In this document: in pieces, positions 1,871 through 51,436 of the stretch
How positions within the stretch are numbered: the stretch's first letter is position 1
How the letters are laid out: each line of letters begins with the position of its first letter
Made by a program: the position numbers and the translations under genes
Notes under the pieces: model-generated
Databases searched by the model: none
What the model saw: only the letters and a program-made list of their open reading frames with translations
What the model was told of the DNA's origin: nothing
From: Sulfuritalea sp.
GTDB taxonomy: Bacteria > Pseudomonadota > Gammaproteobacteria > Burkholderiales > Rhodocyclaceae
NCBI GenBank assembly: GCA_022842325.1
Contig: JALHPU010000002.1
Coordinates: 1-64,000, forward strand
DNA: 64,000 nt
Reading direction: 5' to 3'

Positions 1871-4800
1871 TTATGCCTTCTCGATGTTGACCAGGAACGC
1901 CTTGAACTCCGGCGTCTGCGAATTGGCGTCACCCACGAACGGCGTCAGCGTGTTGGTGATGTAGCCCGGCTTGGCGACTCCCTTGAAGCCCCAGTGCAGC
2001 GGGATGCCGACGGTGTGCACCTTCTTGCCGTCGACATCGAGGGTCGGAATGCGCTTGGTCACCACCGCCACTGCCTTGATGAAGCCGCGGTTGCTGCGCA
2101 CCTTGACCTTGTCGCCATTGGCGATGCCCTTTTCCTTCGCCAAAGTCTCGCTGATCTCGACGAACTGCTCTGGCTGTAGCACGGCGTTGATCCTGGCGTG
2201 CTTGGTCCAGAAGTGGAAGTGCTCGACCAGGCGGTAGGTGGTGGCCACATAGGGGAAGTCCTTGGCCTTGCCGAACACCTCCATGTCGCCCTTGTATACC
2301 CGCGCCGCCGGATTGCTGATGGCTTTCGGGTTGTTGGGGTGGAATGGGTTCTTGTCCAGCGGCGTTTCGAACGGCTCGTAGTGCTCGGGGAAAGGACCGT
2401 CGGCCATGGCCGGCGCGAACAGCCGCGCCACGCCTTCCGGCGCCATGATGAAGGGCATCACCCCTTCGTCGGGCGCGGCGTCGGGCCGCATGTCGGGCAC
2501 GTCGTTGCCGCCCCAGGCGGTGCCGCTCCAGCGAATCACCGCACGCTTCGGATCCCATGGCTTGCCGGCCAGGTCGCAGGAGGCGCGGTTATAGAGGATG
2601 CGCCGGTTGGCCGGCCAGGCGAAGCCCCAGTTCAGCGTCTGCCCCAGCCCCGAAGGATCGGAGTTGTCGCGCCGTGCCGTGAGGTTGCCCGCCTGCGACC
2701 ACGAACCGCCATAGATCCAGTTCCCGCACTGCGTGGAGCCGTCATCGCGCAGTTGCGCGAAGCCGGCCACCTGCTCGCCGGCCTTGACGATGACCTTGGT
2801 CTTGTCCTTGGGATCGAAGACATCGCCCAGCGCCTTGCCGGAGATCTCCATGAGGAGTTCCGCCGGCGAGGGCTTGTCGGGAATGCGGTGCGGCCAGGTC
2901 AGGTTGAGAATCGGCTCGGGCAGCTTGCCGCCGTCCTTGGCATACATCGCCTTGAGCTTGAGGTAGAGCGCCGCGATGATCTCGACGTCGCTCTTCGACT
3001 CGCCCGGAGCGTCGGCTGCCTTCCAGTGCCACTGGATGACGCGCCCCGAACTGGTGAAGGAGCCGGTGTCCTCGGCGAAGAGGTTGGCCGGCAGGCGGAA
3101 CACCTCGGTCTGGATCTTCGCCGGATCGGCTTCGTTGAACTCGCCGTGCGGCTTCCAGAACTCGGAAGTGTCGGTCACCAGCGGATCCATGATCACCAGG
3201 TATTTGAGCTTGGCCAGGCCCTCGCCGACCTTCTTCTTGTTGGATACCGAGGCCAGCGGATTGAAGCCCTGGCAGAAGAAGCCGTTCATCTTGCCCTGGT
3301 GCATGCGCTCGAAGATCGCCAGCACGTCGTAGGCGGCATCCTTCTTCGGCAACCAGTCGTAGCCGTAGTCGTTCTTGTCGGTCGCCGCAGCCCCGTACCA
3401 GGCCTTCTGCAGGCTGGTGAACCATTTCGGGAAGTTCTGCGGGAAGTTCATCTGGTTCGGCCGCAGCGCCTTCGGCGTGCGCTTTTCCAGATAAGTCTTG
3501 CGATCGACATCGGCATCGGTCGGCGCCGACAGGTAGCCGGGCAGCACTTCCGAGTAGAGGCACATGTCGGTGATGCCCTGCACATTGGCGTGGCCGCGCA
3601 GTGCGTTGATGCCGCCACCGGCCATGCCCATGTTGCCGAGCAGCAGCTGGATCATGGCCATGGTGCGGATGTTCTGCGACCCGACCGAGTGCTGCGTCCA
3701 GCCCAGCGCATAGCAGATCGTCATGGTCTTGTCGGGCGCCGAGGTTTCGGCGATCATCTCGCAGACCTTGAGGAACTGATCCTTCGGCGTACCGCTGACC
3801 TTGCTCACCAGTTCCGGCGTGTAGCGGCTGTAGTGCTTCTTCATCAGCTGGAACACGCAGTTCGGGCTTTCCAGGGTCGGATCGACCATCGCAAACCCGT
3901 CCTTGCCCATCTGGTATTTCCAGGTGTCCTTGCCGTAGCTGCGCTTTTCCGGGTTGTAGCCGGAGAAGAAGCCGTCGTCGAACTTGAAGCCTTCGTCGAT
4001 CAGGAAAGCTGCATTGGTGTAGGCCTTGACGTAGTCGAGATGGATCTTGTTGTTGGAGAGCAGATAATTGACGACGCCGCCGAGGAAGGCGATGTCGGCA
4101 CCGGCGCGAATCGGCGCGTAGTAGTCGGCAACCGCGGCGGAACGCGTGAAGCGCGGATCGACCACGACCAGCTTGGCCTTGCGATCCTTCTTTGCTTCGA
4201 TCACCCACTTGAAACCGCAGGGATGCGCTTCGGCGGCATTGCCGCCCATGATTATCACGAGGTCGGCATTCTTGATGTCGACCCAGTGGTTGGTCATTGC
4301 ACCACGCCCAAATGTCGGACCCAGACTGGATACCGTGGGGGCGTGTCAAATACGTGCTTGCGTGTCGAGTGCGACGACTCCGAGGTTGCGCAGAACCTTG
4401 ACCGTGATGTAACCGGCTTCGTTGCCGGCGGCAGAGGAGGCCAGGAAGCCGGTGGTGGTCCAGCGATTGACGGTGACGCCGTCGGCATTCTTCTCGATCA
4501 GGTTGGCATCGCGATCCTTCTTCATGTGCGTGGCGATGCGGCTGATCGCGTCATCCCAGGAGATGCGCTTCCATTCGTTGCTGCCGGCTTCGCGCACTTC
4601 GGGGTACTTGAGCCGGTTCGGGCTCTTGACCATGTCCATCAGGCCCGCACCTTTCGGACACAGGGTGCCGCGATTCACGGGATTGTCCGGATCGCCCTCG
4701 ATGTGGATGATGTCCGCTTTCGCGTTCTTGGACTTGTCGCCCGTGGTGTAGATCAGGACCCCGCAACTGACCGAGCAGTAGGGGCACATGTTGCGGGTTT

Positions 4801-4933
4801 CCGTGGCGTGGGCCAGCTTGTAGCTGCGCACCTCCGCCAGGGCCGATGTGGGTGAGAATCCCATCAGTGCGATGGAAGACCCGCTCATACCGGCGCCGCA
4901 GACCTTGAAGAACTGCCGCCGTGAGACTTGCAT
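1871..4933 (-). CDS. fdoG: Formate dehydrogenase catalytic (alpha) subunit, selenocysteine-containing, Tat-exported
   Basis: This reads as one 1020-residue protein only if the in-frame TGA at 4346-4348 is translated as selenocysteine. That codon is number 196, the same position as Sec196 of E. coli FdnG. The flanking residues (ARI-U-HAPTVSSLGPTFGRGAM) also align, and no sequence is missing across the TGA. The start chosen is ATG at 4933, preceded by AAGGAGGAG; it gives a twin-arginine signal, SRRQFFK, at residues 4-10. An upstream in-frame ATG (4975) lies before the ribosome site and the sigma-54 start and is rejected. A [4Fe-4S] motif (CPYCSVSC) and molybdopterin oxidoreductase domains follow. 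The enzyme oxidises formate in the periplasm. SelA, SelB and tRNA-Sec genes are not in the window. Confidence 0.95.
4303..4348 (-). promoter_or_regulatory. Bacterial SECIS element for Sec196 of fdoG
   Basis: Directly after the TGA the mRNA can form a base stem of 7 bp (CACGCCC at 4345-4339 with GGGCGTG at 4309-4303). Above it is an upper helix CGG-U-AUCC / GGGU-CCG closed by the loop AGUCU. A single bulged U and a GU in the apical loop are the features SelB recognises in the E. coli fdhF hairpin. This explains why the TGA is read as Sec rather than as a stop. Confidence 0.85.
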
Positions 4934-4970
4934 TTTTGCTCCTCCTTTTTGTATGCCAGCGGACAAACAA

Positions 4971-4987
4971 TGCAATTAATGCGCCAA
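4971..4987 (-). promoter_or_regulatory. Sigma-54 (-24/-12) promoter of fdoGHI
   Basis: The minus strand reads TTGGCGCATTAATTGCA. The invariant GG and GC dinucleotides have exactly the RpoN spacing of the consensus YTGGCACGRNNNTTGCW. Transcription would start near 4960, giving a leader of about 27 nt that holds the strong ribosome site. A divergent NtrC-family activator gene begins about 180 bp away. Confidence 0.8.
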
Positions 4988-5169: not shown

Positions 5170-6594
5170 TTGAGTTCCGTACCTGCAGTCACGCCGGTCG
5201 AGATCTCGCCCTGGCACCATCAGTCGGTGCTGGTGGTCGATGACGAACCGGGCATGGTCAGCTTCCTGCAGCGTTCGCTGGCATTGCGCTGCGGCTGGGT
5301 GGCCACCGCCGGCAGTGTCGACGAAGCCGCAGAGCTGCTCAATCGCCGCCACTTCGACCTGATCGTGCTCGATATCGCGCTGCCGGGCCGGTCCGGTGTC
5401 GAATGGCTGCACCAGTTGCGCGACCAGGGTTTTGCCGGCGACGTGGTGCTGATGACGGCCTACGCCGATCTCGAAACCGCAATCGATGCGCTGCGCGCCG
5501 GCGCCGCCGATTTCCTGCTCAAGCCGTTCTCCGTGGCGCAGATGCTGAATGCCGTGAAGCGCTGTTTCGAACGCTCCTCGCTGCGGCGCGAGAATTTTGT
5601 GCTGCGCCGCGAACTGGACCAGCGCGACGACAGCGTCGAGGGCATGGTCGGCAACTCGGCCATGATTCGCGATGTCTGCGCCCGCATCAAGCGCATCGCC
5701 CCGACGCCCTCCACGGTACTGATCCATGGCGAATCGGGCACCGGCAAGGAACTCGCGGCGCGCGCCCTGCATCGCATGAGCTCGCGCGCCGACGGTCCCT
5801 TCGTGCCGATCAACTGCGCCGCGATTGCCCAGGACCTGATCGAGTCCGAGCTGTTCGGCCACGTCAAGGGCGCCTTCACCGGCGCCGCATCGGGCCGCGA
5901 AGGCCTGTTCTATTACGCCCGCGGCGGCACGCTGTTTCTCGACGAAATCTCGGAACTGCCGCTGCTGCTGCAGGCCAAGCTGCTGCGCGTACTGGAGGAA
6001 CACAAGGTGCGCCCGGTGGGCTCGGAACAGGAGGTGCCGGTCGATGTGCGAGTCATCGTCGCCACCAATCGCACGCTGGTCGAGGAAGTCGCGGCGGGGC
6101 GCTTCCGCCGCGACCTTTACTATCGCCTGCAGGTGGTCGAAGTGCTGATGCCGCCCCTGCGCGAGCGTCTCGAGGACCTGCCCGACCTGGTGCATTATTT
6201 CATCGGCCAGCTCTCGGCGCGCCTCGGCGTAGCCGAATTCGCCTGCGACGCCGCGGTGCTGGCGCGCCTGACGCGTTACAACTGGCCGGGCAATGTGCGC
6301 GAACTGAAGAACCTGGTCGAGCGCTCACTGATACTGGGCTACTGCGCCGACGATTTTGTACCCGATGAAGAGGCAGCCGCCGCGTCGCCAGCGCCGTCCG
6401 CAGGGGATACCGCCTCCGGCTACGCCGAAGGCATAACTCCTGATGCCGGCGGCGAGGACTCGCTGGCAGCCATCGAACGCCGCCACATCCTCGGCGTGCT
6501 GGAAACCTGCAAGGGCAACAAGTCCGAGGCCGCACGGCGCCTCGGGGTTTCGCGCAAGACGCTCGAGCGCAAGTGCGCGGCGTGGGGAGTCTAG
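5170..6594 (+). CDS. NtrC-family sigma-54-dependent response regulator, likely activator of fdoGHI
   Basis: A 474-residue protein from the TTG at 5170, which has GAGGAG six bases upstream. An in-frame ATG at 5023 would make the enhancer repeats coding and is less likely. Domains: receiver (about 18-135, phospho-acceptor Asp68), AAA+ (about 157-390) with Walker A GESGTGKE (187-194), the sigma-54 contact loop GAFTGA (234-239) and Walker B GGTLFLDE (252-259), and a Fis-type helix-turn-helix (about 446-472). All residues for ATPase and sigma-54 activation are present. The linker (406-425) contains an in-frame palindromic repeat also found in priA. The gene overlaps its histidine kinase and diverges from fdoGHI. 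Confidence 0.92.
6391..6440 (+). repeat. Palindromic repeat inserted in frame in the response regulator linker
   Basis: These 50 bp match the intergenic unit at 46535-46584 in the flanks (GCGCCGTCCGCA, GGGATACCG, CATAACT). The central hairpin differs (GCCTCCGGC-TAC-GCCGAAGGC, one mismatch). Read in the gene frame it encodes [16 protein letters not shown], the same frame and peptide type as the priA copy. Confidence 0.85.
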
Positions 6595-8645: not shown

Positions 8646-8797
8646 TGCAGTTCAGAGCTTGTGAAGAAATCGTAGCGAGCGGGCCGCAGCGGGGCGCGGC
8701 CGGAGCGCAGCTACCGGAATGTACGCGTTGTACATGAGGATAGCGAGCACCGCCCAAGCCCCGATCCGGCACGCGCAGTAGATTTATTTACAACCTC
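8646..8797. repeat. Convergent intergenic region with hairpin-rich, repeat-like sequence
   Basis: This region lies between the 3' ends of the kinase gene and dsbC and has no plausible gene. It contains GGCCGC...GCGGCC (8682-8701), a dyad TGTAC-GCGTT-GTACA (8720-8734) and two copies of TAGCGAGC (8673-8680, 8741-8748) around them. The arrangement suggests a dispersed extragenic element, but no second copy is in the window. Confidence 0.4.
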
Positions 8798-13939: not shown

Positions 13940-14866
13940 ATGCGCATCGGCGTCGACCTTGGCGGCACCAAGATCGAACTCATCGCCCTCGGCGAGTGCG
14001 GCGAGGTGTTGTTGCGCGAGCGCGTAGCGACGCCGCAGGGCGACTACCCGGCGACGCTGCGGGCGGTGGCGGACCTGGTCGCGGCGGCGGAACGAACAGT
14101 CGGCGCCGGCTCGCTCTGCGTACCTGGAATTCCGCTTCGCGGGCAGGTAACGGTGGCCAGCGTAGGTATCGGCATCCCGGGTGCGGAATCGCGCGCCGGC
14201 GGCCTGATCAAGAACGCCAACTCGACCTGCCTGATCGGCCAGCCGCTGCGCCAGGATCTGCAGCAACTGCTGCAGCGCGAAGTGCGCATCGCCAACGACG
14301 CCAATTGCTTCGCGCTCTCGGAAGCCGTCGATGGCGCCGGCGTCGGAGCGCAGGTGGTATTCGGCGTGATCCTCGGCACGGGCGTCGGCGGCGGCATCGT
14401 GGTCGACGGCAAGGTGCTCGCCGGCGCCAATGCCATCGCCGGCGAATGGGGCCACAACCCGCTGCCCGGGGAACACCACAAGGAAAACTGTTATTGCGGA
14501 CGGCGCGGCTGCATCGAGCTTTACCTCTCCGGCCCCGGCCTCGCCGCCGATCATCGGCGTACCGCCAGCGCCGACTGTTCTCCGCAGCTCATTGCCGAAC
14601 AAGCAGCCGCGGGGGACGCCGACTGCGAAGCCACGCTGCAGCGCTATGAAGCGCGCCTGGCGAAGGCCCTGGCAGGGGTGATCAACATCCTCGATCCGGA
14701 TGTCATCGTGCTGGGCGGCGGCCTGTCGAACATCGACCGGCTCTACACCAACGTGCCGCGGCTGTGGGGCGAGCACGTGTTCTCAGACCAAGTGGCGACC
14801 AGGTTGCTCAAACATCGCCACGGCGATTCCTCCGGCGTGCGCGGCGCGGCCTGGCTATGGCCCTGA
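13940..14866 (+). CDS. ROK family sugar kinase (fructokinase/Mak-like) with an in-frame repeat insertion
   Basis: A 308-residue kinase. It has the ATP-binding DLGGTK motif (6-11), the catalytic NDANCFALSEA and EWGHNPLP sequences, a zinc-binding CYCGRRGCIELY motif and a C-terminal HGDSSGVRGAAWLWP almost identical to E. coli Mak. It phosphorylates a hexose, probably fructose, in the cytoplasm. Compared with Mak, about 15 extra residues (55-71, GAGSLCVPGIPLRGQVT) interrupt the strand before GIGIPG. They are encoded by a copy of a dispersed repeat. The stop overlaps the MOSC start by 10 bp. Whether the enzyme tolerates the insertion is not known. Confidence 0.9.
   Translation: MRIGVDLGGTKIELIALGECGEVLLRERVATPQGDYPATLRAVADLVAAAERTVGAGSLCVPGIPLRGQVTVASVGIGIPGAESRAGGLIKNANSTCLIGQPLRQDLQQLLQREVRIANDANCFALSEAVDGAGVGAQVVFGVILGTGVGGGIVVDGKVLAGANAIAGEWGHNPLPGEHHKENCYCGRRGCIELYLSGPGLAADHRRTASADCSPQLIAEQAAAGDADCEATLQRYEARLAKALAGVINILDPDVIVLGGGLSNIDRLYTNVPRLWGEHVFSDQVATRLLKHRHGDSSGVRGAAWLWP
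14101..14137 (+). repeat. Dispersed repeat module inside the ROK kinase gene
   Basis: These 37 bases match the reverse complement of 46504-46540 at 35 positions; the first 21 are identical. The two differences fall in GT[G/A]CCTG[A/G]AATT. The module adds in-frame codons to a conserved kinase, which points to insertion in this lineage rather than an ancestral segment. Confidence 0.85.
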
Positions 14867-16715: not shown

Positions 16716-18739
<2,024 letters not shown>

Positions 18740-20291: not shown

Positions 20292-21746
20292 TCAGCGCCG
20301 CCAGAAGGCCGGCGTCAGCACCACCAGCAGGGTGAAGATCTCCAGCCGGCCCAGCAGCATGGCGAAGGTGCAGACCCAAGTCTGGAAATCCGTCAGCACA
20401 GCATAGGTGGTCGCCGGCCCGACCTGGTTCAGCCCGGGCCCGGTATTGTTGATGCTGGCGACCACGGCCGAGAAAGCAGTGACGATATCGAGGCCGGTGA
20501 AGGACATCAGCAAGGTCAGCGTGGCAATGCTGGTCATGTACATGAAGCCGAAGGCCAGCACCGCAAACAGGATGTTGTGCGACACCGGATGGCCGCCGAC
20601 GCGCACCGGCCAGGCAATGTTCGGATGCATCGCGCGCATCAGTTCGCGATACACCTGCTTGTAGAGGATGATGGCGCGGATCATCTTGATGCCGCCGCCG
20701 GTGGAACCGGCGCTGGTCACGAAGCTGCAAAGGAACAGCATCCAGAGCGGCGCAAAAAAGGGCCACAGGCTGTAATCGACGCTGGCATAGCCGGTGGTGG
20801 TGGCAATAGAAACGACGTTGAAGGCGGAGTGGCGCAAGGCGGTCGAATAATCGGCATAGGTGCCCTGCAACCACAGATAAAACGCGATACCGAGCACGCT
20901 GGCCAGCGTTACGCCAAGAAACCAGCGCACCTCGGGATCGCGCAGATAGGGCTGCAACGAACGGCCGTAGAGGGCGAGGAACATGGTGGCGAAGTTCATT
21001 CCGGCGAGCAGCATGAAAACAATGGTGACTGCTTCGATGGCGGGCGAATTCCAGTAGCCGTAACTCGCGTCGTGGCTGGAAAATCCGCCCAGGCCCATGG
21101 TGGTGAACGCATGCATTACGGCATCGAACCAGCTCATGCCGGCCCAATGCAGAGCGAGAATGCACAGCCCGGTGACAACGGCATAGACACCCCAGAGCCC
21201 CTTGGCCGTCTGCGTCATGCGCGGCGTCAGTTGCGATTCCTTCATCGGCCCCGGCGTCTCGGCCTTGAACATCTGCCGCCCGCCAATGCCCAGCAGCGGC
21301 AGGATCGCCACCGCCAGCACGATCAGGCCCATGCCGCCCAGCCAGACCAGCATGCCGCGCCACAGATTGATCGACGGCGGCAGTACATCGAGATTCGACA
21401 GCACCGTCGAACCCGTGGTGGTGAGTCCCGACATTGCCTCGAAATAGGCATCGGTAAACGACATGCCAAGCTGGAACATCAGCGGCATTCCGGCGAACAG
21501 CGGAAGCAGGGTCCACACCAGCACCACGATCAGGAAGCCGTCGCGCACTTTCAGTTCCTCATCGTGCCGACGCGCCGACCACCAGAGGCCTAGACCGACT
21601 GCCAGGGATAGGGCAAAGGCTTCGTCGTAGGCCCATTCCGCGCCATCGTGCCAATACCAGGAGAAGCCGAGGGGAACCAGCATGGTCAGCGAAAAGCTGA
21701 TCAGCAGCAGGCCGAACACCCTTACCACCGGATAGTAGCTTTTCAT
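20292..21746 (-). CDS. trkH: Trk potassium uptake membrane subunit TrkH (copy 2)
   Basis: A 484-residue polytopic protein with the four MPM repeats of the SKT superfamily. Filter regions with the conserved glycine are visible, for example MSGLTTTGSTVL, MGLGGFSSHD, TTTGYASVDY and INNTGPGLNQVG. It forms a K+ channel gated by TrkA. It lies 7 bp downstream of a close paralogue of identical length. The 3' ends of the two genes are nearly identical at the DNA level. Two TrkH types also occur in E. coli (TrkH, TrkG), but tandem arrangement is unusual. Confidence 0.93.
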   Translation of the reverse strand: MKSYYPVVRVFGLLLISFSLTMLVPLGFSWYWHDGAEWAYDEAFALSLAVGLGLWWSARRHDEELKVRDGFLIVVLVWTLLPLFAGMPLMFQLGMSFTDAYFEAMSGLTTTGSTVLSNLDVLPPSINLWRGMLVWLGGMGLIVLAVAILPLLGIGGRQMFKAETPGPMKESQLTPRMTQTAKGLWGVYAVVTGLCILALHWAGMSWFDAVMHAFTTMGLGGFSSHDASYGYWNSPAIEAVTIVFMLLAGMNFATMFLALYGRSLQPYLRDPEVRWFLGVTLASVLGIAFYLWLQGTYADYSTALRHSAFNVVSIATTTGYASVDYSLWPFFAPLWMLFLCSFVTSAGSTGGGIKMIRAIILYKQVYRELMRAMHPNIAWPVRVGGHPVSHNILFAVLAFGFMYMTSIATLTLLMSFTGLDIVTAFSAVVASINNTGPGLNQVGPATTYAVLTDFQTWVCTFAMLLGRLEIFTLLVVLTPAFWRR

Positions 21747-21753
21747 CGAGCAG

Positions 21754-23208
21754 TCAGCGCCGCCAGAAGGCCGGGGTCAGCACCACCAGCAGAGTGAAAA
21801 TCTCCAGCCGGCCCAGCAGCATGGCGAAGGCGCAGATCCAGATCTGGAAATCGTTGAGCACGGCAAAGGTCGAGGCGGGCCCGACTTCACTCAGGCCAGG
21901 TCCGGTATTGTTGATGCTGGCGACCACGGCCGAAAAGGCGGTGACGATTTCAAGGCCGGAAAGCGACATCAACAGGGTCATCGAAACAATGCTGGTCATG
22001 TACACAAAGCCGAAGGCCAGCACCGCAAACAGGATGTTCTGCGGCACCGGACTGCTGCCGATGCGCACCGGCCAGACCACGTTCGGATGCATCGCGCGCA
22101 ACAGTTCGCGATACACCTGCTTGTAGAGGATCATGGCGCGGATCATCTTGATGCCGCCGCCGGTCGAGCCGGAGCAGGCGATGAAACTGCCGAGGAACAG
22201 CATCCACAGCTGGGCGAAAAACGGCCACTGGCCATAGTCGGTGGTCGCCAGACCGAGCGAGGTGGCGAGCGAAATGGAGTGGAAGGCAACGTAGCGCAGC
22301 GCCTCGCCGAAATGCGCAAAGGTGCCCACCGCCAGCAGGTAGAACGTCAGGGCCAGGATGCTCGCCGCCAGCAGGCCAAGAAAATACGGCGCCTCGGGAT
22401 CGTTGCGGTAGGGCTTGAGCGAACGTCCGTGCAAGGCCAGAAAATGCGTGGCGTAGTTGAGGCCCGAGAGCAGGGCGAAGAACATCACCGTCAGCTCGAT
22501 CGGCAGGCTGTTGAAATGACCGAGGCTGGCATCCTTGGTCGAAAAGCCGCCGAGGCCCATGACGCTGAAGGCGTGCATCAGCGCATCCCACGGTTCCATG
22601 CCGAAATACCAGAGCATCAGGCCGCAGGCCACCGTCAGCAACAGATAGACGCGCCACAGGCCCTTGGCCGTCTCGGCAATGCGCGGTGTAAGGCTGTTCT
22701 CCTTCATCGGCCCCGGCGTTTCCGCGCGCAGCATCTGGCGGCCGCCGATGCCGAGCAGCGGCAGGATCGCGACCGCCAGCACCACCACGCCCATGCCGCC
22801 GATCCAGTGCATGAAGGTGCGCCAGAAGTTGATCGACAACGGCATCTGGTCGAGCCCGGCGAGCACGGTGGCGCCGGACGCCGTCAGGCCCGATACTGCC
22901 TCGAAGTAGGCATCGGTGAAGGAAAGCTTCAGGTGCAGCAGCAGCGGCAGGCAGGCAAACAGCGGCAGCAGCGTCCACACCAGGACCACCAGCAGGAAGC
23001 CGTCGCGTACCTTCAGGTCGGTGCGGGCGCGCCGCGCCGGCCACCACAGCATCGCTCCGGTCGCCAGCGTCAGCAAAAAGGCCTCGTCATAGGCGGAATG
23101 GGCGCCATCGTCCAGCCCCCAGGAAATCGCCAGCGGTATCAGCATGGTCAGCGCAAAGCAGATCAGCAGCAGGCCGAAGGCGCGCACCACCGGGTAATAG
23201 CGTCTCAT
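21754..23208 (-). CDS. trkH: Trk potassium uptake membrane subunit TrkH (copy 1)
   Basis: A 484-residue TrkH with the same repeat layout as its neighbour. Filter segments are VSGLTASGATVL, MGLGGFSTKD, SLGLATTDYG and INNTGPGLSEVG. One filter (GLATTDYG) differs from the usual TTTGY-type sequence kept in copy 2, so conductance may differ. It sits 16 bp downstream of trkA and is probably co-transcribed with it and with ntrYX. Confidence 0.93.
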   Translation of the reverse strand: MRRYYPVVRAFGLLLICFALTMLIPLAISWGLDDGAHSAYDEAFLLTLATGAMLWWPARRARTDLKVRDGFLLVVLVWTLLPLFACLPLLLHLKLSFTDAYFEAVSGLTASGATVLAGLDQMPLSINFWRTFMHWIGGMGVVVLAVAILPLLGIGGRQMLRAETPGPMKENSLTPRIAETAKGLWRVYLLLTVACGLMLWYFGMEPWDALMHAFSVMGLGGFSTKDASLGHFNSLPIELTVMFFALLSGLNYATHFLALHGRSLKPYRNDPEAPYFLGLLAASILALTFYLLAVGTFAHFGEALRYVAFHSISLATSLGLATTDYGQWPFFAQLWMLFLGSFIACSGSTGGGIKMIRAMILYKQVYRELLRAMHPNVVWPVRIGSSPVPQNILFAVLAFGFVYMTSIVSMTLLMSLSGLEIVTAFSAVVASINNTGPGLSEVGPASTFAVLNDFQIWICAFAMLLGRLEIFTLLVVLTPAFWRR

Positions 23209-25901: not shown

Positions 25902-28016
25902 CTAAACTCCCTTTGCCGCCAGCGGCAGCCAGATGCTTACCTCTCCACCATGATCGTTGGCGAGACGAATCTCGCCGCCGTGGTCATCCACGATTTTTTT
26001 CACAATCGCCAGACCCAGCCCGGTGCCCTTGGACTTGGTCGTGACGTAGGGCTCGAAGGCGCGCGAAAGGATCTGCGGCGGAAAGCCCGGCCCGTTATCC
26101 CGGATGGTCAGTCGCGCACGCCCCGACTCCTGCGCCGTAACGATCGTTATCTGCGCGTCGGCCACGTCGCAAAGTGCGTCCTGTGCGTTGGTCAGGACAT
26201 TATGCAGTACCTGGCGCAACTGGTTGGCATCGGCCAGTACCGGCGGCAGGATGCCGGGAGTCGGCGCCGGTGTGACGGCGATCGCCGGCCGCGAGTTCTC
26301 GTAGAGGCTCAGTACTTCGTTGAGCAGGGCCGTCAGATCGACCGACGCCAGCTGCGGCAGCGGCGTGCGCGCGTAGTCGCGGAAATCATTGACCATGTTC
26401 TTCATCGCCTCGACCTGGTTGACGATGGTCTGCGTGGCGCGATCGAGCAATTCCCGCGACGGACCCGTAAGCTGGTCGGCGAGCTTCAATTGCAGCCGCT
26501 CCGCCGACAACTGGATCGGTGTCAGCGGATTCTTGATCTCATGCGCCAGGCGCTGCGCCACCTCGCCCCAGGCGGCGGAGCGTTGCGCGGCGATCAGCCG
26601 GGTGATGTCGTCGAACACCACCACGTAGCCGCCGCCGCCGGCCGCCGGCAAGGCCGTGCCGCGCACCAGCAGCGCCTGCGTCATGCCGTCCGGGCGTGCC
26701 AGCTCGAGCTGTTCCTGCCACTCGTCGCCGCGCCGGGCGAAGCCGCCGAGAATCGCCCCGGCCAGGGTTTCGTGGCGCGGCCAGTCCTGCAGCCGCGTCT
26801 GCTCGAAGCCGGCCAGGTCGTCGCCGAGAATCGCCAGCGCACCGCGATTGGCGGCACGCAGGCGGAAACGCAAATCGAAGGCCAGCACCCCGGCCGAGAG
26901 GTTGGCCAGCACGGATTCGAGGTAGGCCTGCGCCGCCTCCATCTCATGACGATGGTGTTCGGCCTGGGCCCGCGCCTCGCTCAACTGATGGGTCATGCTG
27001 TTGAAGGAATGCGTCAGCACGCCGAGTTCGTCGGAGGCCTCCACCGTGGCGCGCGGCGTGAAGTCGCCGGCCGCCACCGCCTGCGTTCCTTCGGCGAGGA
27101 TCAGCAGCGGTCGCGCCAGACGCTCGGCGAGGAAAAAGGCCAGGGCGACTGCCGCGAACAGCGCCAGCAGCAGGGCCAGCGTCAGGGTCAGGGTATAGAT
27201 GCGCTTGAGGCCGACGCGGCCGAGTTGCAGCTCCTGGTAATCGCGATGCGCCGCTTCGACGCTTTCCGCGCTGCTGGCGATCGACGCCGGCACCGGCTGC
27301 GTCAATTGCAGGATGCGCGGATCGATGTTGAGGCCGCTGCCGGCGACCGGCGCCAGGGCGCGGACGATCAGGCCGCCGCCCTCGGCCTCACCCACCGAGA
27401 CCAGGCCGCGCCCACTGCGCGCACTGCGCAGCTGACTCGGCGCCGGCACCGAAGGCATCAGGCTGCCCATTTGCGCCGAACTGCTGCCCAGCACCTGGCC
27501 GGAGAGCGTAAGCAGCGTCGCGCTCTGCGCACCGGCCTGTTCGCGCAGCCGGTTCAGCCGGCTCGGAGTGACCAAAGTGTCGTCGCCCAGGTCCAGCGCC
27601 GCGCCGCGGGCTTTCGCCAGCAGCTCGGCCTGCAGCGTATCGAGGACGCTGCGGCCGAGATTGAGGCCGCCTTCGAGTGCAGCGTCGACGCGCACGTCGA
27701 ACCAGGAATCGATGCTCTTCACCGCAAATTGCATCGACACGCCATACACCAGCGCGCCGGGCAGCACGGCCATCAGCGAAAGCATCAGCAGCAGGCGGGA
27801 TTTCAGGCGCGAGCCGAACACGCCGCCGCGATAGTCGCGCCGCAGTTGCCGCAACTGGAGGCCGACCAGCACCAGCAAGGCCACGGCGGCAGCGCCATTG
27901 ATCGCCAGCAGCCAGGGATAGTGTTCGGCGAACAAGGCCGTGTTGGCCGACGCCGAGGCCAGCAGGAACAGCAGGATGGCGCCCAGCGCGGCGATCACCG
28001 CCAGCGCAATTTTCAC
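25902..28016 (-). CDS. ntrY: NtrY-like membrane sensor histidine kinase
   Basis: A 704-residue kinase from the GTG at 28016; the reading frame upstream is repeat DNA. Order: three N-terminal transmembrane segments, a periplasmic region (about 105-270), a further membrane segment (about 280-300), HAMP, PAS (about 365-460), HisKA (RLAHEIKNPLTPIQLSAERL) and HATPase with DNGPGFP and GTGLGLAIV. This is the standard NtrY layout. It is linked to nitrogen, redox or envelope signalling in other proteobacteria. The neighbouring trk genes suggest that here it may influence ion or envelope balance, which is inference. Confidence 0.9.
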   Translation of the reverse strand: MKIALAVIAALGAILLFLLASASANTALFAEHYPWLLAINGAAAVALLVLVGLQLRQLRRDYRGGVFGSRLKSRLLLMLSLMAVLPGALVYGVSMQFAVKSIDSWFDVRVDAALEGGLNLGRSVLDTLQAELLAKARGAALDLGDDTLVTPSRLNRLREQAGAQSATLLTLSGQVLGSSSAQMGSLMPSVPAPSQLRSARSGRGLVSVGEAEGGGLIVRALAPVAGSGLNIDPRILQLTQPVPASIASSAESVEAAHRDYQELQLGRVGLKRIYTLTLTLALLLALFAAVALAFFLAERLARPLLILAEGTQAVAAGDFTPRATVEASDELGVLTHSFNSMTHQLSEARAQAEHHRHEMEAAQAYLESVLANLSAGVLAFDLRFRLRAANRGALAILGDDLAGFEQTRLQDWPRHETLAGAILGGFARRGDEWQEQLELARPDGMTQALLVRGTALPAAGGGGYVVVFDDITRLIAAQRSAAWGEVAQRLAHEIKNPLTPIQLSAERLQLKLADQLTGPSRELLDRATQTIVNQVEAMKNMVNDFRDYARTPLPQLASVDLTALLNEVLSLYENSRPAIAVTPAPTPGILPPVLADANQLRQVLHNVLTNAQDALCDVADAQITIVTAQESGRARLTIRDNGPGFPPQILSRAFEPYVTTKSKGTGLGLAIVKKIVDDHGGEIRLANDHGGEVSIWLPLAAKGV

Positions 28017-28854: not shown

Positions 28855-30097
28855 GTTCGGCATCGGGCAGTTCTGGCAGTTGTGCATCGCCGCGTGTTGC
28901 GCCTACGGTCGGCAGATGCCGGGCATCGGCATGACGGCCGACGAAGGCATTGATCTGCTCGGCATTTTCTTGCGCGAATACCGAGCAGGTTGCATAAAGC
29001 ATTTTGCCACCGGGGGCGAGAGTTCGCCACAAGGCATCGACAATCGCCCTTTGCGTAGCGGCAAAGCCGGCGATGTCGGCTTCGCGGCGCAACCACTTGG
29101 CGTCGGGATGACGGCGTACCACTCCCGAGGCCGAACACGGCACATCGGCCAGGATGCGGTCATAGGGGCGGCCGTCCCACCAGGCGTCGACGGTGCGCGC
29201 ATCGCCGACCTTGACCGTCGCCGCCAGCCCCAGTCGCTGCAGATTTTCGCTGATGCGGGCGGCGCGCAGGGCATCCGCATCGAGCGCGTCGAGATCGATT
29301 TGCGCGGTTTCCAGCAGGTGCGCCGCCTTGCCGCCGGGCGCGGCGCAGGCATCCAGCACGCGCATGCCGTCCGCCACGTCGAGCAGGCCCGCCGCGGTCT
29401 GTGCGCCCCAGTCCTGCACCGAGCACAAGCCGGCGCCGAAGCCGGGGATGCGCTCCACCGGCAGCGGCTTGTCGATCAGTATCGCCGCGGCGTCGAGTGC
29501 CCGCGCCGCGATCCCGGCGTCCGCGAGCTGCACGAGAAAGTCGGCGCTGGTGCTACGGCGCAGATTGACCCGCAGGCACAGCGGCGGATGGCTGTTGCCG
29601 GCGGCGAGGATGCTTTCCCAGTACGCCGGATGATCCTGCTGCAGCCGTGCGATCCACCACGCCGGATGCTGCCGGCGTGCCACCGGGTCGGCATCGGCAC
29701 GGGCCAGCAGGTCGGCGCGGCGGCGCAGGAAATTGCGCAGCACGCCGTTGACCAGGCCCTTGAACTGCCCGCGAGCGATCCGCGCCGCTGCCGTCACCGC
29801 CTGGTCGACGATGGTGTGGGCTTCGTCCGGCCGTACTTCGAGCCGTGCCAGCGCGACCAGCAGCAGGCCGCGCGCGGTCTGGTCCGACACCGGCCGCGCC
29901 AGCAACTGGCCGAGCAGAAAGTCGCCGCGGCCAAAGGCACGCAGGGTGGAATAGGCCAGATCCATGGTCGCGGCACGCAGCGGACCGGCAAGCCTGGCGT
30001 GCGCCAGTGCGACATCGAAATTGCGGCCGGCGAGCACGGCGGCGACCAGGCCGGCTGCCGCGTGCATGGCGTCGGCAAGGGGAGGGAGCATCAGCAT
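28817..30097 (-). CDS. rsmB: 16S rRNA m5C967 methyltransferase RsmB
   Basis: A 426-residue enzyme. An N-terminal NusB-like RNA-binding domain (about 1-140) precedes a SAM-dependent methyltransferase with VLDACAAPGGKAAHLLE (motif I), ADVPCSASGVVRRHPD (catalytic Cys and substrate loop) and YATCSV (second Cys). It methylates C967 of 16S rRNA. In relatives it follows fmt directly; here a radical SAM gene is inserted between them. Length is typical (E. coli 429). Confidence 0.95.
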   Translation of the reverse strand: MLMLPPLADAMHAAAGLVAAVLAGRNFDVALAHARLAGPLRAATMDLAYSTLRAFGRGDFLLGQLLARPVSDQTARGLLLVALARLEVRPDEAHTIVDQAVTAAARIARGQFKGLVNGVLRNFLRRRADLLARADADPVARRQHPAWWIARLQQDHPAYWESILAAGNSHPPLCLRVNLRRSTSADFLVQLADAGIAARALDAAAILIDKPLPVERIPGFGAGLCSVQDWGAQTAAGLLDVADGMRVLDACAAPGGKAAHLLETAQIDLDALDADALRAARISENLQRLGLAATVKVGDARTVDAWWDGRPYDRILADVPCSASGVVRRHPDAKWLRREADIAGFAATQRAIVDALWRTLAPGGKMLYATCSVFAQENAEQINAFVGRHADARHLPTVGATRGDAQLPELPDAEHDGFYYALLQKD

Positions 30098-31380: not shown

Positions 31381-32298
31381 TCAGTCGGGACGCAGGGAAC
31401 TGCCGTTGAGGAAGTCGGCGCTGGTGACACGGCGACCGCCGGGCTTCTGCAGTTCGGTGAGGCGCAAGGCGCCTTCGGCGCAGGCCACCACGATGCCGTT
31501 CGCATCGGCGGCGAGCACCTGGCCGGGGCGGCCGCCGGCGGCAACCGCCTCGCCGCGCCAGGCCTTGACCGGCTCGCCGGCCAGGGTCACCACCGCGCCG
31601 GGGAAGGGATTGAAGGCGCGCACTTTGCGCGCGATTTCCGCGGCCGGCCGGTTCCAGTCCAGGCGTGCCTCGGTCTTGTCGATCTTGTTGGCGTAAGTCA
31701 CGCCGGTTTCGGGCTGGGCTGCGGGCGACAGCTGATCGAAGCGCGCCAGCGCCTCGACCACCAGCCTGCCGCCCAGCACGGCGAGCCGATCGTGCAGGCT
31801 GCCGGTGGTTTCCTGCGGGTCGATGTCGAGCGCGGCGGAACGCAGCATCGGCCCGGTATCGAGCCCGGCCTCCATCTGCATGAGGGTGATGCCGGTTTGC
31901 GCGTCGCCGGCCTCGATCGCGCGATGGATTGGCGCCGCACCGCGCCAGCGCGGCAGCAGCGAGGCATGGATGTTGATGCAGCCACGGCGCGGCAGGTCGA
32001 GCACGGCCTGCGGCAGGATCAGGCCATAGGCAGCCACCACCATCAGTTCCGCGCCTTGTTCGCTGCAGGCAGTGCGGATCGGTTCGTGCGTCGCCGGGTC
32101 CTTGAGTCGCTCGGGCTGGAACAGCGGAATGCCGTGGGCCAGCGCCACCTTTTTGACCGCGGAGGCCTGCAGGATCATGCCGCGCCCCGCGGGGCGGTCG
32201 GGCTGGGTCAGTACCAGCACGACCTGATGCCCGGCGGCCAGCAGGGCTTGCAATGCCGTAGCGGCAAACTCGGGCGTGCCGGCGAAAATGAGTTTCAT
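31381..32298 (-). CDS. fmt: Methionyl-tRNA formyltransferase
   Basis: A 305-residue enzyme that formylates initiator Met-tRNA using 10-formyl-THF. The start at 32298 gives the canonical [13 protein letters not shown]. The catalytic region contains the [20 protein letters not shown] motif with the conserved Asn, His and later Asp. It follows def by 10 bp on the same strand, the usual def-fmt pair. The C-terminal domain is complete. Confidence 0.96.
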
Positions 32299-35931: not shown

Positions 35932-38592
35932 ATGTCAAAGCAACTCATCATCGCCGAGAAACCTTCCGTCGCCCAGGATATCGCCAAGGTGCTGGGCGGC
36001 TTCACCAAGACCGGCGACTACTTCGAGAGCGACGATTACGTGTTGTCCTCGGCCATCGGCCATCTGCTGGAACTGGCCGTGCCGGAGGAATACGACGTCA
36101 AGCGCGGCAAGTGGAGCTTCACCCATCTGCCGATGATCCCGCCGCATTTCACGCTGAACCCGATCGAGCGGACCCAGGAACGCCTGCGCCTCTTGACGCG
36201 CCTGATCAAGCGCAAGGATGTCACCGGCCTGGTCAATGCCTGCGACGCGGGGCGCGAAGGCGAACTGATTTTCCGCTACGTCGCGCAGCACGCGCTGGGC
36301 GCCAAGCAGAAACCCATTCGCCGCCTCTGGCTGCAGTCGATGACGGCCACCGCGATCCGCGACGGCTTCGCCCACCTGCGCACCGACCACGAAATGCTGC
36401 CGCTGGCCGACGCTGCACGCTGCCGCTCGGAAGCCGACTGGCTGATCGGCATCAACGGCACGCGCGCCATGACCGCCTTCAATTCGAAGGAAGGCGGCTT
36501 CTACAAGACTCCCGTGGGCCGCGTGCAGACGCCGACCCTGGCGATCATGGTCGAACGCGAAAGCCGCATCCGCGCCTTCGTTTCACGCGACTACTGGGAA
36601 GTCGAAGGCGAATTCCAGTGCGTCGCCGGCACCTACCGCGGCCGCTGGTTCGACGAGAAGTTCAAAAAAGCTGACGATGAGCATGCCCGCGCCGAACGCC
36701 TGTGGGACAAGGCCAGGGCCGATGCGCTACGCAAGAAATGTCTGGGCCAGCACGGCACGGTCGAAGAGGACAGCAAGCCCAAGACCGAGGCCTGCCCGAT
36801 GCTCTACGACCTCACCTCGCTGCAGCGCGAGGCCAACGGCCGCTTCGGATTCAGTGCCAAGAACACGCTGGGACTGGCCCAGGCCCTGTACGAAAAACAC
36901 AAGGCGCTGACCTATCCGCGGACCGACAGCCGTCACCTGCCGGAGGACTACATCGGCACGGTCAAGGAAACCCTCGCGGCGATGGCAGGCACGCCCTACG
37001 CGACCTTCGCCGGCGCCATCATCAAGAACGGCTGGGTGCACCCGAACAAGCGCATTTTCAACAACGCCAAGGTGAGCGACCACTTCGCCATCATCCCGAC
37101 GGGCACTGCGCCGAAGAGCCTCTCCGAGCCGGAACAGAAGATCTACGACCTGGTCACCAAGCGCTTCCTCGCCATCTTCTACCCGTCGGCCGAGTACAAC
37201 ATCACGACGCGCATCACGCGCATCGAGCAGGAAGCCTTCAAGACCGAAGGCAAGGTGCTGGTGACGCCGGGCTGGCTCGCCGTGTATGGCAAGGAATCGC
37301 AGGAAACCCGCGAAGAGGCCGGCGAGAACCTGACCCTGCCGCCGCTGGAAAAGAACGAACGGGTCTGGGCCAAGGATGTCGAGGTCAAGGCCAAGGCCAC
37401 CCAGCCGCCGCCGCGCTTTACGGAAGCCACGCTGCTGACCGCCATGGAAGGCGCCGGCAAGCTGATCGAGGACGAGGAACTGCGCGAGGCCATGTCCGAG
37501 CGCGGCCTGGGCACACCGGCCACGCGCGCGGCGACCATCGAAGGCCTGCTGGCCGAGGAATACCTGCACCGCAACGGCCGCGAACTGCAGCCGACAGCCA
37601 AGGCCTTCTCGCTACTGTTCGCGCTGGAAAACCTTGGTGTGGACGAAATTCGTTCGCCCGAGTTGACCGGCGAATGGGAATACAAGCTCCGCGAGATGGA
37701 GCATGGACGGCTGGCGCGCGACGAGTTCATGAACCATATCGTGGACAGAACGCGCGATATGGTCGAACGCATCAAGACCGGCGAACTGCCCGAGGCCGCC
37801 TTCTCGACGCTGAAGACGCCCTGCCCGCGCTGCGGCGGCGTGATCCAGGAAAACTACAAGAAATTCCAGTGCAAGTCCTGCGACTACAGCCTGTGGAAGG
37901 TGGTCGCCAGCCGGCAATGGGAACCCGAGGAAATGGATGAACTGCTTTCGCAGCGCGTGATCGGTCCGCTGCAGGGCTTCCGCAGCAAGATGGGGCGGCC
38001 CTTCGCCGCCATGATCAAGCTCAAGGAAGACCACATGCCGGAATTCGATTTCGGCCAGTCCGACGCCGACGCCGATGCCGAGGAGGTGGATTTCTCGACC
38101 CAGGAAACCCTGGGCGCCTGCCCCAAATGCGGCGGCCGCGTTTTCGAGCACGGCATGGCCTATGTTTGCGAAAAGGCCGTGGGCGCCGGCAAGACCTGCG
38201 ACTTCCGTTCCGGCAAGGTGATCCTGCAGCAGGAAGTCGCGCGCGGCGACATGCAGAAGCTGCTGGCCACCGGCCGCACCGACCTGCTCAAGGGCTTCAT
38301 CTCGAACAAGACGCGGCGCAAGTTCTCCGCCTACCTGGTGCGCGACCCGGCCAGCGGCAAGGTCGGCTTCGAGTTCGAACCGCGGGCGCCGAAAGCCGGG
38401 GCGAAACCGACGGCCAAGACCGCCGAGGCAAAACCGGCGAAAACCGCCGCCACCAAAGTCGGATCAACAGTCGGCGCTGGCGAGACGGCGAAGAAGCCCG
38501 CAGTGAAGAAGGCGGCAGCCAAAAAGCCGACAGTCAAGAAGCCCGCAGCGAAGCCGGCAACGAAGAAGCCGGCGGCCAAGAAAGCCGCTTGA
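35932..38592 (+). CDS. topB: DNA topoisomerase III with a Lys/Ala-rich tail
   Basis: An 886-residue type IA topoisomerase. The Toprim domain starts MSKQLIIAEKPSVAQDIAKV, with NACDAGREGELIFR as its acidic motif. The active-site tyrosine lies in ALTYPRTDSRHLPEDY. Two C-terminal zinc-ribbon-like units (CPRCGGV...CKSC and CPKCGGRV) follow. The last 70 residues are a low-complexity Ala/Lys/Pro tail (KKPAVKKAAAKK-type repeats), like the tails of histone H1-like proteins, likely a nonspecific DNA clamp. The enzyme relaxes negative supercoils and decatenates. Confidence 0.93.
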   Translation: MSKQLIIAEKPSVAQDIAKVLGGFTKTGDYFESDDYVLSSAIGHLLELAVPEEYDVKRGKWSFTHLPMIPPHFTLNPIERTQERLRLLTRLIKRKDVTGLVNACDAGREGELIFRYVAQHALGAKQKPIRRLWLQSMTATAIRDGFAHLRTDHEMLPLADAARCRSEADWLIGINGTRAMTAFNSKEGGFYKTPVGRVQTPTLAIMVERESRIRAFVSRDYWEVEGEFQCVAGTYRGRWFDEKFKKADDEHARAERLWDKARADALRKKCLGQHGTVEEDSKPKTEACPMLYDLTSLQREANGRFGFSAKNTLGLAQALYEKHKALTYPRTDSRHLPEDYIGTVKETLAAMAGTPYATFAGAIIKNGWVHPNKRIFNNAKVSDHFAIIPTGTAPKSLSEPEQKIYDLVTKRFLAIFYPSAEYNITTRITRIEQEAFKTEGKVLVTPGWLAVYGKESQETREEAGENLTLPPLEKNERVWAKDVEVKAKATQPPPRFTEATLLTAMEGAGKLIEDEELREAMSERGLGTPATRAATIEGLLAEEYLHRNGRELQPTAKAFSLLFALENLGVDEIRSPELTGEWEYKLREMEHGRLARDEFMNHIVDRTRDMVERIKTGELPEAAFSTLKTPCPRCGGVIQENYKKFQCKSCDYSLWKVVASRQWEPEEMDELLSQRVIGPLQGFRSKMGRPFAAMIKLKEDHMPEFDFGQSDADADAEEVDFSTQETLGACPKCGGRVFEHGMAYVCEKAVGAGKTCDFRSGKVILQQEVARGDMQKLLATGRTDLLKGFISNKTRRKFSAYLVRDPASGKVGFEFEPRAPKAGAKPTAKTAEAKPAKTAATKVGSTVGAGETAKKPAVKKAAAKKPTVKKPAAKPATKKPAAKKAA

Positions 38593-46266: not shown

Positions 46267-46480
46267 GTTGAATACCTCTGAAGCCGACCCCCGCAATGTT
46301 GCAGGCCAATCTGGGCGGAACTTCTATGGGGTGTAACCTTCGATGCGACTTTGTGTCGCCATTCAGGCACGACCGGCAGACTGGGGCGCGGTCGCTGAGG
46401 AGGTGAAGCGGGGCGGACTGTAACACAGCCCGCCGCCAAGCCCGGGGATTTCTTTCGCCGTTGCCTGCCCGCGTCCGAGT
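46267..46480. other. Intergenic leader region upstream of rhlE
   Basis: No gene is supported. Short dyads are present (for example GCAATGTTGC and GCGACTTTGTGTCGC), and the rhlE promoter must lie here. The part from about 46441 may belong to the same repeat element that follows, but no second copy allows its edge to be fixed. Confidence 0.5.
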
Positions 46481-46584
46481 GGATACCGTCCCTGCGGGAC
46501 ATAAAGCGGAATTTCAGGCACGCAGAGCGAGCCGGCGCCGTCCGCAAGGGATACCGTCTCCGGCTTTGCCGGAGACATAACTTC
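46481..46584. repeat. Palindromic repeat array, the longest copy of the family
   Basis: Two units of the form GGATACC-hairpin-ATAA occur in tandem: stem GTCCC/GGGAC (46488-46500) and stem GTCTCCGGC/GCCGGAGAC (46556-46576). They are joined by a linker (46504-46540), which is the segment found in the ROK kinase. The second unit with its left flank (46535-46584) is the segment found in the regulator and priA. The array ends exactly at the rubredoxin stop codon. Confidence 0.85.
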
Positions 46585-49321: not shown

Positions 49322-49413
49322 CGGACGCGGAATCCAGGCGTCGGCCCGACAAAGCGGCGTGGCAGATCTCCCGTGGGGACAGGCCCCAGTCGCCGTCCCG
49401 CCAGCGCCGACTT

Positions 49414-50007
49414 TCAGCGCAGGTCGGAGACCAGCGAGGCCCGCACCGCTTCCGGCAGCGCGCCGGTATTCGCGCTGTAGGCCGGGTGGTCGACGCCCAC
49501 CGAGAGCGCGGCGCCGCCCTTGGCTGCCGCCACCATGCCGGCGGACAGCTCGAAGCGCAGGAAATGCACGGCCGAGGTCTTTTTTTCGTTCTCGCGCTCG
49601 AGGTCCTCGTCGGCGATGGCAAACACCGGGTCGAAGCCTTCGACACGGACCCAGACGCGATCCTCGACGCCTTTCAGCAAAGCCAGCATGCGGTGGCGCT
49701 CGGCCTCGTCGGCGTACTCGATCTGCATCGTGACCTTGAAGTTGCTGCCGGTCGGCAGCAGCGGCACATAGGTTTCCAGTTCGTGGCGAATGCCGTCTTC
49801 CTCGAATATCTTTTCGACGCGCAGCATTTCCTGAATCTGGTAACGAATCAGCAATTCGTTCTCGAAAATGAGCAGGATGTGCTCGCCGAGCGCGATGCGG
49901 CGCAGCTTTTTCTGGGCCATGACTTGCTCGCGCATGGCGCTACGCGCCTTGGCATAGGCTTCGAGGGTCATTAACGAGTCGCGGGTGATGGTCATTGCGG
50001 TTTCCAT
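49414..50007 (-). CDS. DUF3501 family protein
   Basis: A 197-residue cytoplasmic protein typical of DUF3501: ITRDSLMTLEAYAKAR, then LGEHILLIFENELLIRYQIQEMLRVEKI and a C-terminal VHFLRFEL. The function is unknown. Genes of this family regularly follow a CCG-domain Fe-S protein and rubrerythrin, as here, and overlap or abut them. The start at 50007 touches the stop of the Fe-S gene; an ATG at 49995 is an alternative. Confidence 0.88.
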   Translation of the reverse strand: METAMTITRDSLMTLEAYAKARSAMREQVMAQKKLRRIALGEHILLIFENELLIRYQIQEMLRVEKIFEEDGIRHELETYVPLLPTGSNFKVTMQIEYADEAERHRMLALLKGVEDRVWVRVEGFDPVFAIADEDLERENEKKTSAVHFLRFELSAGMVAAAKGGAALSVGVDHPAYSANTGALPEAVRASLVSDLR

Positions 50008-51342: not shown

Positions 51343-51409
51343 GGCGTCCTTCCTTAGGGTTGCATTGAAACGGGGCAGGGCGTCGGGGTCAGGGGTCGGC
51401 GCTGGCGGT

Positions 51410-51436
51410 ACGGCGCGCGGGCTAGCCGCGCGCCGT
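51410..51436. terminator. Strong GC hairpin between rubrerythrin and the Fe-S protein gene
   Basis: An 11-bp stem (ACGGCGCGCGG / CCGCGCGCCGT) with loop GCTAG lies 13 bp past the rubrerythrin stop. It lacks a T run, so it may be a processing or partial termination site that lowers downstream expression. Confidence 0.5.

Follow-up and report, generated by a model that had tools for sequence, protein, structure and literature searches.

Hairpin cassettes inside a dispersed 24-nt motif at a sugar kinase gene and other loci of Sulfuritalea sp.

A sugar kinase gene with an in-frame insert

The stretch of DNA analyzed here, further referred to as the window, comprises bases 1-64000 of contig C2 of the 4.89 Mb draft genome of Sulfuritalea sp. 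(G000). Its forward-strand gene at 13940-14866 encodes a mak-like ROK sugar kinase of 308 amino acids, which is 53% identical to E. coli Mak and scores 251 bits against the Pfam family PF00480 (ROK) and 384 bits against the NCBIfam fructokinase PRK09557, the latter value being under the cut-off of 443. The named orthologues matching it best come from Sulfuritalea MAGs. The alignment to E. coli Mak bears out what an earlier note on this DNA had read from the sequence, namely that 15 additional residues are inserted in frame before the GIGIPG segment and that without them the protein is Mak-like end to end, apart from one 7-residue gap in the opposite direction. Sharing of the insert residues by distant orthologues, the outcome which the same note had set against its own reading, was not what we found: the short form of the site occurs in 76 of 110 orthologue readings (the window is counted in, and some genomes are present in both sets).

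In the AlphaFold model of the kinase (51 aligned sequences, mean pLDDT 91.9, pTM 0.89), residues 56-73 are placed between a helix (36-55) and a strand (74-79), and the sole runs of at least three residues with pLDDT below 50 are 57-60 and 65-69. The insert is probably a disordered loop within a confident fold. By sequence it lies inside the kinase domain, yet according to the model it should be a tolerated loop by which the domain is hardly disrupted, and it is therefore ill suited to show how much disruption a domain tolerates, the use that had been suggested for it. One more variable insertion place of the kinase gene was observed before the CYCGRRGC segment, in the orthologues L054 and L055 as well as in the genomes G003, G016, G021, and G025 (near residue 178).

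A dispersed motif and hairpin cassettes

The segment 14101-14137 matches the reverse complement of 46504-46540 in 35 of 37 nt (95%) and heads the list of inverted repeats of the window. The repeat is real and dispersed, as a 76-nt query around the kinase segment retrieved 20 places in the same genome at E<=0.001, 12 of which (including the kinase site) match over 52-76 nt at 82-100%; at least 46 nt of the query match at 12 further places. A chance match as the source of the repeat is ruled out by these copies and by the motif counts in the genome and in the window (see below). The notion that the kinase carries a piece of one and the same repeat system survives as regards the dispersed repeat, but not as regards a single one, since what is repeated is a hairpin cassette within a separate 24-nt motif, and the 37 nt belong to a longer unit. 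This unit, of 60 nt, occupies 14096-14155 of the forward strand. Its outer parts, the left one (ACAGTCGGCGCCGGC, 14096-14110) and the right one (ACGGTG, 14150-14155), form the motif AAAGTCGGCGCYGGYGNYACGGCG, and the 39 nt between them (14111-14149) are cassette A, with a covarying hairpin of two 4-bp stems at 14123-14147. The orthologue of G028 forms a clean pair with this site: it has the bare motif, relative to which the window has a net +36 nt.

At up to three mismatches, the motif occurs 730 times in the genome (323 forward and 407 reverse), while the control, the same pattern read backwards, gives 0 forward and 1 reverse matches; the window has 9 copies against 0.02 expected. Within a 464-kb sample of the genome the number of matches levels off as the threshold is relaxed (82, 94, and 106 with up to three, four, and five mismatches; 0, 1, and 12 for the control), and the conserved block is sharply delimited. 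According to a purpose-made gene finder, 53 of the 82 copies in the sample are wholly within called genes, 3 at gene edges and 26 outside; since a fraction of 0.833 of the sample is coding, this is somewhat fewer in genes than expected (p=4e-5). The in-gene copies use the six frames unequally (21, 3, 6, 10, 1, and 12; p=1.6e-5). Openness in all six frames is not special, being found in 2211 of 5000 random 24-mers, and the units with A and B are open in five and four frames out of six, respectively.

Unfilled motifs of the window lie on the forward strand at 26257-26280 (3 mismatches), 31411-31434, 38467-38490, in the rsmB/Sun-like gene at 29537-29560, and between genes at 51392-51415 (3 mismatches), and on the reverse strand at 58193-58216, 61104-61127, and, at a gene edge, 49391-49414. 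The kinase gene itself has a second motif, also unfilled, at 14555-14578 on the reverse strand, which is read as HRRTASAD. It is aligned without gaps to E. coli Mak, and its length is kept in most rows of the genus alignment; in G009 it houses cassette B.

Outside this genome, the motif was found in all 31 genomes of the genus, with 58 copies in G017 and 175-750 in the other 30. The motif-poor G017 nevertheless has 17 A hairpins. Among 199 genomes drawn evenly from the family, most had 0-7 copies (0-3 for the control) and some had 8-37, while the genera g32, g62, g43, g70, and g88 were motif-rich with 242-753 copies, g69 had 103 and one genome of g47 had 63. In the g69 genome (G098) 19 of the 20 copies listed, out of 103, carry the change of GTCGGC to GTCGAC, a dialect-like variant. 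An exact 22-nt form of the motif occurs in at least 120 stretches of viral contigs (IMG/VR). The 80 viral loci kept (L356-L435, 745 kb), each of them selected for holding one motif, contain 111 matches, i.e., 31 beyond one each, and none of the control. Some near-exact motifs lie in phage genes, for instance in that of an antirepressor and at the end of one for a portal protein. On one viral contig (L391:883-2239), five motifs follow in a row with spacings of 316 nt (three times) and 385 nt (once), the motif being part of a tandem array. To our knowledge, no function of this motif has been described.

With cassette A, 36 nt are gained after GGCGCYGGY. The inserts after AAAGT add 21-42 nt (36-42 for B proper and 24 for a short form). 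The length of the insert is divisible by three in 25 of 28 readings of split motifs, many of which are in genes. In the window genome, A is found in frame in the genes of the kinase, trpC, glmU, waaA, a LysR regulator, an acyl-CoA dehydrogenase, ubiH, an RND adaptor, tex, and a Memo/AMMECR1 protein, and B in moaE, grpE, priA, and the genes of a DPBB/SPOR protein, an acyl-CoA carboxylase subunit, and an NtrC-type regulator, as well as in RNase E/G, where the coding score is weak. The assignment of one host gene to cysB was rejected, its profile matches being those of the LysR family (CynR-like). The cassettes occupy linkers or tails in priA, the NtrC-type regulator, and tex, and the inside of domains in trpC, glmU, waaA, and Memo. 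With the same cassette inside conserved domains of these and other proteins, the kinase copy is not the special case, as opposed to linker copies, for which it had been taken. Two of the B copies are in the window, with boundaries set by eye. The motif at 6378-6441 (forward strand) contains 39 nt of B (6397-6435) in the linker before HTH_8 of the NtrC-type response regulator, and that at 18326-18386 (forward strand, the priA gene being on the reverse one) contains 36 nt of B (18332-18367) between the 3'BD and DEAD domains.

The intergenic partner of the kinase repeat (46504-46540) is outside called genes, and its best frame scores below 0. Read by eye, its locus is a composite one: a single motif (46457-46584, reverse strand) contains A, broken by a 30-nt B-type hairpin (46474-46503), and, on the other side, 39 nt of B (46541-46579).

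The A pattern was matched at 22 places in the window genome, and 29 of the 31 genus genomes have one match or more; the B half-pattern is present in all 31, several of them being near the control level. Among 67 distinct 25-mers from the matches listed, found with up to three mismatches, which limits what they can show, the stems of A pair in 96.5% of cells (89.6 when shuffled) and have 25 double-changed cells against a shuffled mean of 4.5 (0 of 500 shuffles); B was not counted. One pair of the stem is U-A in 45 cases, G-C in 12, A-U in 3, C-G in 1, and unpaired in 6. The folding energies of single A copies are ordinary (z of -0.55 and +0.54), and no Rfam family covers the element at the gathering score. 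The hairpins prefer the motif as their target. Of 30 loci retrieved by the hairpin alone, one gave no match; of the other 29, 14 have both motif halves beside it, 7 the right half, and 8 neither; 20,000 random positions had both halves in 170 cases and the right half in 2,093.

Content of the kinase site in the genus and origin of the motif

The site occupied by cassette A in the kinase of the window is filled differently across the genus. In G017 it has neither insert nor motif, and in G008 and G019 it has a motif-like sequence without any change of length relative to G017. The bare motif, with +9 nt, is present in G010, G011 (decayed), G020, G027, G028, and G029. Cassette A is found in the window genome and G005, cassette B in G009, G012, and G024, B with a second hairpin in G002, G007, and G013 (in G007 with a third hairpin inside the second), and another insert in G015; the content of the site is ambiguous in G006, G018, G022, and G030. 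The filled or unfilled state requires at least 7 changes on 22 rows, with the four ambiguous rows left out, and the full state 14 on 26; these counts are rough, as 10 of 23 inner branches of the kinase tree are open.

The A cassettes of G000 and G005 share 56 of 57 nt, while the other 855 columns of the kinase alignment are 81.2% identical. When the insert columns were excluded from the kinase tree, the window clustered with G027 (96/98) and G005 with G028 (90/89), both of these partners having the bare motif, and a clade of the window and G005 is rejected (p-AU of 0.0012 for this pair, which was picked after the tree had been seen). As A is nearly identical in the two genomes and the clade is rejected, A reached the kinase site twice or was moved by recombination. 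The latter, i.e., short-tract recombination between species instead of two insertions, is rather doubtful in our opinion. It would explain why the cassettes agree so much better than the rest of the gene, and an uptake-type motif would accompany frequent transformation; however, the codons adjoining the insert lack near-identity, so that the recombined tract would have to stop at the insert. That the cassette was ancestral and was excised precisely in many lineages appears decidedly less probable. Precise excision would leave bare motifs such as those observed, but it does not agree with a nearly identical A in genes that are 19% apart, nor with the motif-like sites of G008 and G019, which do not differ in length from that of G017. 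As for the insert being an adaptive part of the kinase, we give this hardly any credence: it is in frame and present in two lineages, but related species differ in its content, the model shows it as disordered, and its peptide is also found in proteins unrelated to the kinase.

Outside the kinase gene, G005 and the window form another clean pair, in which the bare motif of the former corresponds to the motif with B at 6397-6435 of the latter; the 39 nt are added without duplication. G000 and G005 share little order. From their 144 and 71 motifs, with overlapping loci counted in, we obtained only 9 comparisons of motif sites (7 present, 2 absent), some of them reciprocal.

Several conserved proteins contain the motif without a gap relative to solved structures, namely those aligned to BirA (8f8u), an ABC exporter (7pqx), a quinone oxidoreductase (4dup), and Sun/RsmB (1sqf, the window copy at 29537-29560); they are no random sample, since the proteins were chosen after their motif peptides had been seen. 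Of two further motif proteins, one had no match among solved structures and the displayed alignment of the other stops short of the motif. When eight motif sites of the window genome were compared with G017, four were equal in length, and the one at C2:94069 differed by 24 nt. Among 607 aligned pairs from 50 sites, equal length was found in 20 of 184 pairs in which one member lacks the motif (at least 7 mismatches) and in 198 of 333 motif-sharing pairs, compared with 1274 of 1398 at random positions; exactly 24 nt separated the members in 4 of the 184 motif-lacking pairs. Phage relatives were also compared in search of empty sites, but there the motif was located in variable regions. We read these data as suggesting that the motif would have originated by substitution at least at some sites, with insertions added later.

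The whole 60-nt unit could alternatively be one mobile element similar to the Rickettsia palindromic elements, with the bare motifs being deletion scars or short forms that are likewise able to insert. The richness of motif sites in indels, the few pairs that differ by exactly 24 nt together with C2:94069, the +9 nt of the unfilled kinase site, and the near-exact motifs within phage genes are in favor of this explanation. It is at odds with the five gap-free sites in conserved proteins (the BirA-, ABC-, quinone reductase-, and RsmB-like ones and the second site of the kinase) and with the four sites equal in length to those of G017, and we consider it unlikely.

Interpretation and comparison with known systems

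The explanation which we consider probable is a two-layer system. The first layer would be the 24-nt motif, present in hundreds of copies and arising by substitution at some sites at least; the second would be made up of A, B, and further short hairpins, whose length is in most cases divisible by three and which would dock inside the motif at two fixed points, and sometimes inside one another, without target duplication, as one clear pair suggests. In the kinase of the window genome, A would have entered the motif directly before the GIGIPG strand, and A and the motif together would make up the 15-residue loop, tolerated and probably disordered. The cassettes may travel as folded single strands, moved by a HUH/Y1-type or other recombinase. 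Movement of folded single strands is a feature of REP and IS200/IS605 systems.

No mobilizing enzyme was found for the hairpins, and no transposase could be linked to them. Y1_Tnp genes are present in 26 of the 31 genus genomes. At the one locus read by eye, a Y1 transposase gene of the window genome (G000:C5:11494-11820) is bounded by GGGGTCAGAGTCA inverted repeats, and, these ends being unrelated to the cassettes, we rejected, for this locus, the idea that the latter are REPs of the resident Y1 transposase. In the set of Y1 transposase loci (L236-L254), 16 of the 18 scanned, each of 1.7-3 kb, contain the 24-nt motif (up to four mismatches).

As to REP/REPIN elements with RAYTs (GTAG- and CGTC-tagged), they resemble our cassettes in being short many-copy hairpins, and the pairing of the A stem is conserved here. 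However, the target in our case is a 24-nt motif without a palindrome evident to the eye; REPs are mainly extragenic, whereas A and B are within conserved genes; and the Y1 transposase gene of the G000 locus that was read is not flanked by the same repeat, as would be typical of REP/RAYT systems. CGTC adjoins the B stem as read by eye. MITEs differ by their target-site duplication, which is absent here in one filled/empty pair.

Palindromic repeats in frame within genes are recorded for Rickettsia, O. terrae, Thauera, and others in PMC3733652, where REPs inside genes, those of Thauera among them, are described as well. The Rickettsia elements, which we compared by description, share with our cassettes this in-frame position, while here the hairpin adds 36-42 nt within a separate and mostly empty 24-nt motif and the host is a betaproteobacterium. 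According to the same source, GTAG-23 of T. roseum is located within small palindromes that are also found empty in hundreds of copies (PMC3733652). A search by sequence string and title in one open library, with few subscription journals and without bioRxiv, gave no literature match for the motif or the hairpins. In-frame palindromic repeats are known, but the docking motif and the recurrent filling of the same site look new.

The uptake sequences of Neisseriaceae and Pasteurellaceae (DUS and USS) are similar to the motif in that both strands carry short copies by the hundreds, nearly identical to one another and to about two thirds located in genes (53 of 82 here), as well as in the preferred frames, the gap-free position at some conserved sites, and the shared variant in G098. 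Here, however, the 24 nt are long and hairpins insert into the motif. With considerable reserve, we suggest that Rhodocyclaceae-like bacteria could have in this motif a DNA-uptake-type sequence which exceeds the known ones in length, has dialects, and has been driven to hundreds of copies, and in which a guild of hairpin elements docks in a frame-tolerant manner, so that proteins throughout the genus would be edited repeatedly at the same codons by cassette exchange.

Judging from the different fillings of the kinase site, bacterial proteins seem to be altered time after time by tiny mobile repeats. The kinases of related species represent a natural series of one enzyme with 0 to 41 extra residues at a single loop, and hairpin elements have a genome-wide motif as their preferred target, present in hundreds of copies in several genera and also in phage contigs. 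Two questions thereby become accessible to testing, namely by what means REP-like hairpins that have no known transposase move and pick their sites, and how selfish DNA inserted in frame into housekeeping genes is tolerated by bacteria.

Some other features of the window may be mentioned. On the reverse strand at 1871-4975, where two ORFs were listed and the start of the translation is presumably formate-dehydrogenase-like, the Rfam family SECIS_3 is matched at 4293-4351 with 77.5 bits at an in-frame TGA, and the translation with TGA read as U gives ...DTQARIUHAPTV...; the two ORFs are therefore probably one selenoprotein gene. At 20292-23208 (reverse strand), two paralogous genes lie in tandem, both of 484 aa and with 71-85% identity over the stretches reported, and 8660-8735 (reverse strand) matches an sX9-like RNA (49 bits; gathering score, 44).
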